A stretch of DNA of 64,000 bases from Methanofollis formosanus (lineage in GTDB: Archaea > Halobacteriota > Methanomicrobia > Methanomicrobiales > Methanofollaceae), in contig NZ_CP037968.1 in assembly GCF_019633745.1 (NCBI RefSeq), forward strand, positions 496,001-560,000. Direction: 5' to 3'. The notes beneath the pieces are model-generated. The model was not told where the DNA came from and did not search any database. It worked only from the letters and a program-made list of their open reading frames with translations. The translations under genes and the position numbers were made by a program. Within the stretch, counting starts at the first letter, position 1. Each line of letters opens with the position of its first letter. Positions 4,052 to 7,478 of the stretch are shown here, piece after piece.

Positions 4052-4450
4052 ATGGTCTATTTCAAGATGGCAAAGACGGCGATCAAGTCGCTCATCCACG
4101 GCCCGTCCACCATCCGGTACCCGGCCGAACCGGCAAAGCAGTACCCGACTTCACGCGGGCACGTGACCATCGACCCCTCGAAGTGCATCTCCTGCGGGAT
4201 GTGCATGCGCAAGTGTCCGGCCGATGCGATCTGCGTCAGGCGCGACGAGAAACTCTGGGAGATCGACCTCTTCAAGTGCCACGTCTGCAACTGCTGCGTG
4301 GAGGTCTGCCCGGTGCACTGCCTCACGATGGAGACGGAGTACCGCCCGGCTTTCGCCGAGCACGAGGGCGTGCAAGTGGTGAAGATCACCTATGTCAAGC
4401 CCGAGAAGAAGGCCGTGAAAAAGCCGGCTGAAGATAAGTCCGAAGAGTAG
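4052..4450 (+). CDS. echF: Ech-type hydrogenase subunit F (2x[4Fe-4S] ferredoxin, NuoI-like)
   Basis: This 132-residue iron-sulfur protein should pass electrons between soluble ferredoxin and the hydrogenase small subunit. Two clusters are seen: Cys45, 48, 51 and 55 (CISCGMCMRKC), and Cys76, 79, 82 and 86 (CHVCNCCVEVC). Cys81, next to a ligand, is an extra cysteine. The C-terminal tail is lysine-rich (EKKAVKKPAEDK). A GAGGTGA ribosome-binding site lies in the seven-base gap after echE. A second in-frame ATG at 4067 is a less likely start. The six genes echABCDEF run in the order of the Methanosarcina and Desulfovibrio ech operons. Confidence 0.94.
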   Translation: MVYFKMAKTAIKSLIHGPSTIRYPAEPAKQYPTSRGHVTIDPSKCISCGMCMRKCPADAICVRRDEKLWEIDLFKCHVCNCCVEVCPVHCLTMETEYRPAFAEHEGVQVVKITYVKPEKKAVKKPAEDKSEE

Positions 4451-4470
4451 ATGGGGCAAGACTCATCCTA

Positions 4471-4477
4471 TTTTTTT
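4471..4477 (+). terminator. T-tract terminator after ech operon
   Basis: Seven consecutive T residues 21 bases after the echF stop, the form of an archaeal U-tract terminator. No strong hairpin precedes it. Confidence 0.5.
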
Positions 4478-4545
4478 GGCCGCTTCGTCGGCCGCGGATG
4501 AGCAGCATCGAAAAATGAAAATATAGGGGTTTTGTGAACAGGAGT

Positions 4546-4593
4546 TCACTGCTTGGGTTCCTTCGGCTGCTTCTTGCCACCCTTCTTTGCCAT
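4546..4593 (-). CDS. Putative 15-residue lysine-rich microprotein
   Basis: The reading frame encodes MAKKGGKKQPKEPKQ followed by TGA. Six of fifteen residues are lysine, with Gly, Pro and Gln filling most of the rest, so the peptide would be strongly basic and unstructured. It is called because of its signals, not its length: a textbook ribosome-binding site GGAGGTG at 4601-4607 sits seven bases before the ATG, a possible TATA element (AAGGTTTAAACC, about 4640-4650) lies roughly 26 bases before a plausible RNA start, and a T-rich stretch follows the stop on the same strand (about 4505-4515). It converges on the ech operon. I do not recognise the family; the function is unknown. It could be the leader of an untranslated RNA instead. 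Confidence 0.5.
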   Translation of the reverse strand: MAKKGGKKQPKEPKQ

Positions 4594-4610
4594 GGTGCCT
4601 CACCTCCTGT

Positions 4611-4860
4611 GAGTGCGTTGATCAGAGATTCGTATCTCCGGGTTTAAACCTTGTGTCATATCTTTGCTTAATTCCGCGATCTCCTCGCAATAGGGAGATT
4701 TTCCGGGCCATTTCAGGCGTATTTCCAACCCCTCGCACCAGGTCCCGAGGCCACCCGGGAATGGCCTGCAATCCTGGAGAGATCCTGAGAGTGCGGCGCG
4801 AGGTGCGGCACCTCCCGGGCTCAGGGCTTCAGATCACCCGCCTCCCACAAAGAAAATGAT
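4611..4860. other. Intergenic stretch, nothing else recognised
   Basis: Apart from the possible promoter of the mini-gene at 4640-4650 and a small inverted repeat GAGAT-TCGT-ATCTC at about 4625-4638, I see no gene, RNA or repeat copy here. Confidence 0.4.
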
Positions 4861-5440
4861 CTCCAATATTGGCTTTGTAGAATCGGGCATGAACCCTGGG
4901 CTCAAGCATACGGGATGAAAATTTTCTGAGTTGCTTTACGGTGTGTGGGCGGGACCCCAATCCTCGCGACAGAACCTTTGGAAGATCTGGTTTCATCGCC
5001 GCCCCCCGGTTATCCTCGTCGTGGGGGTCCGGGGGCGGAGCCCCCGGCATAAGGATGAGGGAAGGCGATGGATGAAGGTCACAGGGGAGGTGAGGTGATG
5101 AAAAGAGGATGGTTTACCATGAAAATGATCCAGAATACCCTCTCTTCATGTTTGCATGAGAGTCTGAACTCTTTATATCACGTTGAAGCCGATACGCAGA
5201 GGATAGAAAATTCCTCTGATGGATCGGCCGCCCCCATCGTCGAGATTTCCCTGCCATCTCGCACCGGGGGATTGCACCCCCCGGACCCCCCACGACGAAG
5301 ATAGGTGGGGGCGGCGATGGAACGAAGTCTCCACCAGTTCTCCTGTCTTGATAAGAGAGAGAGCACGTGACGAGAAATGTTCATCCCGTATGCTTGAGCC
5401 CGAGGCTCATGCCCGATTCTACAGAGCCCCAATATTGGCA
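4861..5440. repeat. Composite repeat locus 1, bounded by inverted hairpin copies
   Basis: A hairpin copy in minus orientation (4871-4926) and one in plus orientation (5375-5430) face outward at the two ends, about 500 bp apart. Both are flanked by the palindrome CCAATATTGG (4863-4872 and 5429-5438). Inside are a GC-rich hairpin (CCGGGGGCGGAGCCCCCGG near 5029-5047), the module that begins ATGAAAATGATCC (5118-5240), a second GC-rich hairpin with a TTGCA loop (5262-5300), and the short lead-in with AAGAGAGAGAGCACGTGACGAG. The arrangement resembles a non-autonomous inverted-repeat element, but no transposase is present. Confidence 0.75.
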
Positions 5441-5539
5441 CTATCGATTTGAATGGAGATCTGGCCGCATAGAACGCCATCGTAACGAATATGCGGAGAC
5501 CAAAACGCTCTCTAAACTTTCAGGGACTTTGCCTTCCCA

Positions 5540-5695
5540 CCCCTCTCTTCTTCCCGGGGGTCCGTGAAGTGGTGGTCACATATGGTGTCCTGCTCCGAAG
5601 GGAGAGCAAGGATTCACAACCCGGAGACCAAGGAGAATTATCATCCCCTATGCTTGAACCCGGGGTTCACGGCGGATTCTACAGAGCCCAAAACT
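5540..5695 (+). repeat. Composite repeat locus 2, partial
   Basis: This holds a shortened GC-rich part (CCTTCCCACCC then CCCGGGGGTCCG), the module GTGTCCTGCTCCGAAGGGAG (about 5570-5615, a GCTCC/GGAGC hairpin) and a plus-orientation terminal hairpin (5638-5693, stem TGAACCC/GGGTTCA). The same order of parts is seen at 30400-30531, 36990-37116 and 48585-48713. Confidence 0.7.
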
Positions 5696-5804
5696 AGTTC
5701 ATCTCATCAGAGAAAGATCATTCATCACGCTCCGGGCCTTCCGGACGGTTGCATCGTGCCGTCACGGGCTTTCAGTCAGCACACCACACCACCAGCGATC
5801 AACA

Positions 5805-7478
5805 ATGTACACCTATATCCCCGGCACTCTGGTTATGATTGCATCACTCGTCATAGCCTCAGTCATCGCCGGCGTCAGCTGGAAACGCCGCGACGCGGCA
5901 GGTGCACGGGCGTTTTTCGTCTTCACCCTCGGTGTCCTGGTCTGGTCGCTCGGCGAGGGCTCGGCCCTCCTCCCGCTCGGCCCTGACTGGCAGGTTTTCT
6001 GGGTCAAGGCGGCGTTTGTCGGCATCGCCGTGCTGGTCCCGGCATGGATGGCATTTGTCATGCAATATACCGGCAAGGAGCGGACGGTCACCCTGGTCGC
6101 GACCATCGCCGCTGCCGTCGTTCCCGCTGCCGCCGCCGTGCTCTCTCTCTCTGAGAGCGTGCCGGTCACCGAACTCATGGAGGGCACCCCGTACCTCCTC
6201 GTGATGGCTTCGGTGTATCTCGTCGTCATCATCAGCGTCATCTTTCTGGTGGCGATGCTCCTCGCGGCGCCGGCGACGTACAGACGCCAGATCGGGTTTG
6301 TCCTGATGGGCGCCCTCATCCCCTGGGTGGTGGTCCTCTCCCCCCCATTCACGACGTCCCTCCTCGAACCAACCGCCAGTTGGTGTGTCCTCTGCATCAT
6401 GACCGCCGCCCTCGCCGCCACGGCCGGGGCGCTCAAGGCCGGGCTCTTCGGCACGATCCCCCTCTCCAAGGACCGGTACTTCAACAACCTTACCGACGGC
6501 ATCTTCGTCCTCGACCCGCAGTTCAGGCTCGTTGAGGCGAACAGAAAGGGCGAGGAGATGGTGCGGCACCATTCGGAAGAACTGACCGGACTGCCGGCGG
6601 CCGAGTTCATCAATCATTTCCCTGAACTCCAGAAGGGATACGAAGGTGAATACGAGGCCACCTATATCCAGAGCATGAAAAAGCCGGACGGGAGCACAGA
6701 ACACTTCGAACTGCGCATCTCTCCCATCACCGACTGGTGCTCCAGGACCACCGGCCACTTTCTCCTGGTCAGGGACATCAGCAGACTCAAGGAGACCGAG
6801 GACGCCCTCCGCACGGCCCACAAAAAGGTCTCGATCCTCAGCGAGATCTCGCAGCACGACATCAAAAACCAACTCGAGGTGATCGCCGGGTACGGTGGGG
6901 TTCTCGACGATATCACACCCGACGACTCGGATCAGAAGATATACGTCAGGCGGATCCTCGACGCCTCGGAGATTATCGCCGAGCACATCGCTGCCGCCAG
7001 GGACTGCCGCGATCTCGGGATCAGGACGCCCGAGTGGCAGTCGGTGGCGGAGGGGGCAGCCAGGGCGGGCAGGATCCTCGAGAACCACGGCGTCGCCCTT
7101 GAGGTGGAGGCCGGAGACCTCGAGATCCATGCCGACCCTCTCTTCGAAAAAGTCTTTTACAACCTCTACGAGAATGCCATCAGGCACGGCGGCGGCATCA
7201 CAACGATGAGGGTGAGCGCTTCGGATGCAGGCGGGCAGGTGGTCATCGTCGTCGAGGACGACGGTAGAGGCGTGGCCACATCAGAGAAAGAAAAGATTTT
7301 CGAGAGAGAGTACGGCTCGCACTCGGGCCTCGGCCTCTTCCTGACCCGGGAGATCCTCTCGGCAACCGGCATCTCGATCCGGGAGTGCGGGGTACCCGGG
7401 AAGGGGGCGAGGTTTGAGATCCTGGTCCCGCCAGAGAGATCTCGTCGGGCCGACCCTGCGGGAGAAGACGCGGGATAG
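5805..7478 (+). CDS. Membrane sensor histidine kinase (7TM-PAS-HisKA-HATPase)
   Basis: This 557-residue signalling kinase has seven hydrophobic segments in residues 1-215, a PAS domain at about 220-330 (RYFNNLTDGIFVLDP), a phospho-acceptor helix pair near 345-410 and an ATPase domain near 440-545. The H-box reads SQHDIKNQLEVIAGY, the HDIxNQL variant common in methanogen kinases. The N-box is NLYENAIRHGG, G1 is DDGRGV and G2 is GLGLFLT, so it should be active. No response regulator lies nearby. The N-terminus resembles the archaeal 7TM histidine-kinase sensor domain, whose ligand is unknown. The TPP enzyme gene starts 45 bases downstream and may be co-transcribed. The ATG at 5805 is the first that includes the full first helix. 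Confidence 0.92.
   Translation: MYTYIPGTLVMIASLVIASVIAGVSWKRRDAAGARAFFVFTLGVLVWSLGEGSALLPLGPDWQVFWVKAAFVGIAVLVPAWMAFVMQYTGKERTVTLVATIAAAVVPAAAAVLSLSESVPVTELMEGTPYLLVMASVYLVVIISVIFLVAMLLAAPATYRRQIGFVLMGALIPWVVVLSPPFTTSLLEPTASWCVLCIMTAALAATAGALKAGLFGTIPLSKDRYFNNLTDGIFVLDPQFRLVEANRKGEEMVRHHSEELTGLPAAEFINHFPELQKGYEGEYEATYIQSMKKPDGSTEHFELRISPITDWCSRTTGHFLLVRDISRLKETEDALRTAHKKVSILSEISQHDIKNQLEVIAGYGGVLDDITPDDSDQKIYVRRILDASEIIAEHIAAARDCRDLGIRTPEWQSVAEGAARAGRILENHGVALEVEAGDLEIHADPLFEKVFYNLYENAIRHGGGITTMRVSASDAGGQVVIVVEDDGRGVATSEKEKIFEREYGSHSGLGLFLTREILSATGISIRECGVPGKGARFEILVPPERSRRADPAGEDAG

Follow-up and report, generated by a model that had tools for sequence, protein, structure and literature searches.

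A conserved 15-codon frame with a covarying Shine-Dalgarno hairpin in the methanogen genus Methanofollis

Stand-alone genes of 15 codons fall under common annotation size limits and are hard to distinguish from chance frames. Thx and eL41 are short basic proteins associated with the ribosome, 25–26 residues long, arginine-rich and broadly conserved, and the leader peptides of transcription attenuation comprise about 14–20 codons behind a strong Shine-Dalgarno (SD) sequence. In Methanosarcina mazei, Ribo-seq revealed 314 unannotated small open reading frames (sORFs), half of them of 30 residues or fewer; several are conserved within the genus, and some lie on small RNAs (PMC11456600). The small RNA sRNA154 of this species carries a conserved 20-residue frame, is proposed to have a dual function, and has an sORF described as leaderless (PMC11456600).

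The Methanofollis micro-ORF described here resembles the M. mazei sORFs as a tiny, unannotated methanogen frame conserved at the genus level, but it belongs to another genus and was found by comparison, whereas those were found by Ribo-seq. It is also SD-led and stand-alone, unlike the leaderless sORF of sRNA154. Its predicted product is very short and lysine/arginine-rich, as are Thx and eL41, but it has 15–16 residues, is rich in lysine, glycine and proline, and is limited to one genus. Attenuation leader peptides are similar in codon number and strong SD, whereas the micro-ORF is untied to one downstream gene and has its own T-rich end.

Start signals and conservation of the frame

The window, a 64,000-nt stretch (G000:C1:496001-560000) of a single-contig genome of 2.97 Mb, contains the micro-ORF MAKKGGKKQPKEPKQ on the minus strand at 4546..4593, with 15 codons followed by TGA (ATG at 4593-4591, TGA at 4548-4546). 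An in-frame TGA lies nine bases 5' of the ATG, so the micro-ORF cannot extend farther in this genome. The SD sequence GGAGGTGA, an 8-nt match at 4600..4607 on the minus strand, is separated from the ATG by six bases, or by seven when counted from GGAGGTG. About 49–50 nt before the ATG is a TATA-like box, TTTAAA (4643..4648, minus strand), a putative promoter element, and 3' of the stop a T-rich tract (4510..4526, minus strand) forms a candidate transcription terminator. Two instances of the combination GGAGGTGA-N(4-8)-ATG are present in the window against 0.26 expected, which is weak taken alone.

What places the micro-ORF beyond chance is its conservation. Degenerate pattern searches recovered it from 9 of 12 Methanofollis genomes, the SD is invariant in all nine orthologs, and 34 of the first 39 coding bases are invariant in their alignment. 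The TATA-like box (TTTATA or TTTAAA in other clades) and the SD with its spacing are conserved in all nine, so the micro-ORF has kept its own start signals, and the T-rich tract is kept in kind in the same genomes. The sequence-only reading had proposed a complete mini-gene comprising this frame, a GGAGGTG with seven-base spacing, a TATA element and a T-rich stretch after the stop. Each part was found as claimed, and the whole set, from promoter box through SD, frame and stop to T-rich tail, is kept as one unit.

Variation among the orthologs is of a coding type, falling mainly at third positions within the first 13 codons. When mapped on an EchA tree, codons 2–13 showed 12 parsimony changes, 8 of them at third positions (P = 0.019). 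Replacements in this stretch affected only residue 6 (Gly/Ser) and residue 2 (a single Ala/Val exchange). The C-terminus reads PKQ, PKE, PQE, PQQE or PQPE, giving 15 or 16 residues. One clade has a whole extra in-frame codon ahead of the stop. A single clade uses TGA as its stop codon, and the others use TAA. The third-position bias, the in-frame codon indel and the retained stop indicate purifying selection on the frame as a protein, in a test of modest power that rests on 13 conserved codons. Identical codons at conserved residues were also somewhat more frequent than expected (8 of 11 versus 4.7, P = 0.027), with the expectation drawn from conserved residues of the TPP-enzyme, aminotransferase, EchE and EchF genes. 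Since this identity slightly exceeds the level of the neighbours, an added function at the RNA level is possible.

Between the most divergent clades, the first 13 residues of the peptide differ at two positions only, whereas identity is 48% for the kinase, 74% for the TPP enzyme, 62% for the aminotransferase and 73% for EchF. With the peptide near-unchanged and its signals and upstream region kept while the neighbours diverged, the micro-ORF is a credible functional gene. Its conserved basic core, KKGxKKQPKEP, is the one feature pointing to the possible nucleic-acid or membrane-surface binding suggested by the sequence-only reading.

Searches beyond the genus gave no comparable frame, with one chance-like bacterial exception. 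A sequence model of SD and frame scored the nine orthologs at 70–79 bits across 232 genomes of the order; matches elsewhere in these genomes reached at most ~20 bits, and the weak matches inspected were unrelated. A genus-wide pattern allowing mismatches and a frame pattern without the ATG in 80 genomes both returned the orthologs only. A scan of genome contigs matched three Methanofollis records and one frame on a Yonathbacteria contig, which is chance-like, and no match to the micro-ORF was found in viral contigs. In another family of the order, the minus strand of L083 near 1516 carries a 48-residue frame beginning MAKRNNKQTSKFVATKASSIL with the SD GGGAGGTGA, a candidate small conserved protein.

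The leader hairpin and the upstream block

The SD lies within a hairpin, GCaCTCAC-AGGAG-GTGAGGC (4597..4616, minus strand), which we identified by folding and arm comparison and which is absent from the earlier description. All nine leaders enclose the SD in this way: GGAG occupies the loop, and GTGA opens the 3' arm. The arms are CTCAC/GTGAG in four genomes, ACTTCAC/GTGAAGT in three, and AACTCAC/GTGAGTT in two. With the arms set in register, both partners of pairs five to seven differ among the three clades, and complete pairing occurs only between arms of one clade, not between arms combined across clades. This covariation across three clades, in an informal comparison of few sequences, indicates an RNA structure conserved beyond coding need. 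Individual hairpin energies were 1.4–2.4 standard deviations below shuffles, so the hairpin rests mainly on covariation. When leader and first codons were folded jointly, G002 and G007 had a different minimum-energy structure, and the SD hairpin is therefore likely but not settled in these two genomes. In the clade of the window genome only (L018, L016, L021, L022), the stop codon lies within a hairpin, GTGAAC/GTTCAC, whose arms are fixed and whose loop varies among TCCT, TCCA, TCGT and TCTA.

A 220-bp upstream block with motifs at fixed distances accompanies the micro-ORF and was also missed in the earlier description; past about -245 the upstream DNA is unalignable. Motif A, GGTGCCGCAC (4803..4812, minus strand), contains a dyad, GTGC-S-GCAC, and in the nine-genome alignment its consensus GGTGCSGCA(C) lies at -219 to -221 from the ATG. 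It is 72–73 bp upstream of motif B, GGTGCGAGGG (4730..4739, minus strand), in all nine genomes; motif B is invariant and lies at -146 to -149. Motif C, GGAAAATCTC (4695..4704, minus strand), lies near -110 in the alignment. The A–B pair was present in all nine genomes with the micro-ORF and absent from all 223 others among the 232 of the order searched. The block appears to have a regulatory role. We rejected it as a shared regulon site, as the A–B pair was found at the micro-ORF locus only, and as a conserved RNA fold, as consensus structure on either strand amounted to no more than a few pairs. Rfam covariance models gave no match near the gathering score in 4400–5900.

Neighbouring genes and genomes without the micro-ORF

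In the window, the micro-ORF is convergent with the last gene of the ech operon, which encodes a ferredoxin-like subunit (here EchF; 4052..4450, plus strand, Pfam Fer4), and divergent from a gene for a 7TM-PAS-HATPase histidine kinase (5805..7478, plus strand; Pfam PF16927, PF08448 and PF02518). The constant neighbours that define the locus are a TPP-enzyme gene (nine of nine genomes) and the kinase (eight of nine), with an aminotransferase gene beyond them. The convergent and divergent arrangement is found in G000, G003 and G005, and the micro-ORF is also divergent from the kinase in G001. It shares a strand with the kinase in G002, G007, G008 and G009, where the kinase begins ~150–200 nt downstream, and it is retained in G011, where the kinase is absent from the locus.

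The suggestion that the frame may be conserved next to ech held in part: the operon lies on the micro-ORF's interval in five genomes (G000, G003, G005, G008 and G009) and ~7 kb off in a sixth (G001), and the pattern does not extend to the rest of the genus. G002 has a different hydrogenase paralog nearby, with 41% EchE identity. We rejected antisense control of ech, as the convergent layout is confined to one clade. A 54–57-nt repeat, GGCTTTGTAGAATCGGGCATGA..., occurs three times between ech and the kinase in the window (4871-4926, 5375-5432 and 5633-5692), in direct and inverted pairs. This interval is ~830 bp longer in G000 than in G005, and the extra DNA therefore resembles an insertion of mobile or repeat DNA.

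Three of the 12 genomes (G004, G006 and G010) are without the micro-ORF. In G004, the sister of G002, a transposase-like gene lies directly before the kinase, which is truncated to its C-terminal part; we identified this gene by eye from the DNA at the truncation point (L056). In G006, only the C-terminal 212 residues of the TPP gene remain, and they are fused to another frame, representing either a deletion junction or an assembly chimera; the in-frame and unrelated N-terminal partner of this remnant (L117, G006:C2:400338-403973) appeared by eye to be like Mur-ligase or cofactor-biosynthesis proteins. In G010, contigs end within TPP and just past EchE, so absence there is not established. On the tree, the three absences need three changes, and the simplest reading is two losses and one gap. 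Since the midpoint root has genomes with the micro-ORF on either side, the micro-ORF is most simply ancestral to the genus. Absence from close relatives with shared synteny, on which the sequence-only reading had staked its claim, was not observed: the three genomes without the micro-ORF show a transposase insertion, a truncated neighbour or a contig end at the locus, so no relative with intact synteny lacks it.

Competing readings and a possible function

We consider it fairly probable that the locus is a stand-alone, regulated, protein-coding micro-gene ancestral to Methanofollis, with transcription and translation predicted from its conserved signals. This is the best-supported reading. Its main rival, which we regard as unlikely but worth serious weight, is a small RNA of ~100 nt, dual-function or purely regulatory, that acts by base-pairing with the frame secondary. 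Near-invariant nucleotides in the frame, the slight excess in codon identity, the covarying 5' hairpin and the stop-overlapping hairpin of a single clade, with its variable loop, are all consistent with such an RNA, and sRNA154 of M. mazei provides a precedent (PMC11456600). However, the bias toward third-position changes, the whole-codon indel that keeps the frame, the invariant SD at proper spacing, and the switch between TGA and TAA with the frame intact are not predicted by a function of the RNA alone and argue against it. A micro-gene and a dual-function RNA can hold together.

The remaining alternatives are far less probable. A leader peptide or attenuator of the downstream histidine kinase would fit the four genomes in which the micro-ORF precedes the kinase on the same strand, but the micro-ORF points away from the kinase in four others, persists without it in G011, and is followed by a T-rich tract of its own. 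Thus, it holds no fixed position or orientation before one regulated gene, and this explanation is very improbable. We give equally little credence to a chance frame whose conserved part is only a neighbour's upstream regulatory DNA. The conserved upstream block is long, but conservation carries on into the SD and 13 codons and drops after the stop. It keeps the frame, and where the orientation changes it goes with the micro-ORF rather than with a neighbour. Very short stand-alone precursor genes for ribosomally made, modified peptides do exist, as in microcin C7 and PqqA; nevertheless, the constant neighbours here (kinase and TPP enzyme, with the aminotransferase beyond) are not peptide-modifying enzymes, and the peptide has no modifiable Cys or Thr and no division into core and leader, which makes such a precursor the most improbable of the alternatives.

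Under the micro-gene reading, transcription would start ~25 nt downstream of the gene's own TATA box, with motifs A, B and C as upstream sites controlling it, and would terminate within the T-rich tract, so that the RNA would measure ~100 nt. The leader would be almost wholly one hairpin, with GGAG of the SD exposed in its loop and GTGA kept in its stem, and we propose that ribosome access could thus be tunable. The product would be a cationic peptide of 15–16 residues that has hardly any hydrophobic residues and is predicted to be disordered and to stay in the cytosol. Its charge, together with the hairpin, suggests that its target is probably RNA, the ribosome or an acidic protein, and that it possibly binds its own leader hairpin as feedback. 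That this is among the smallest stand-alone conserved archaeal genes, encoding a 15-residue cationic peptide that binds its own SD hairpin and so autoregulates, in a circuit resembling that of a ribosomal protein in miniature, under a dedicated upstream regulatory region, is a speculative and rather doubtful extension.

A reading of raw sequence joined to comparison within one genus can establish a 15-codon gene. The promoter, upstream sites, SD hairpin and peptide form a compact, testable unit in a methanogen and, if translated, the micro-gene would bear directly on the minimum size of a functional archaeal gene.
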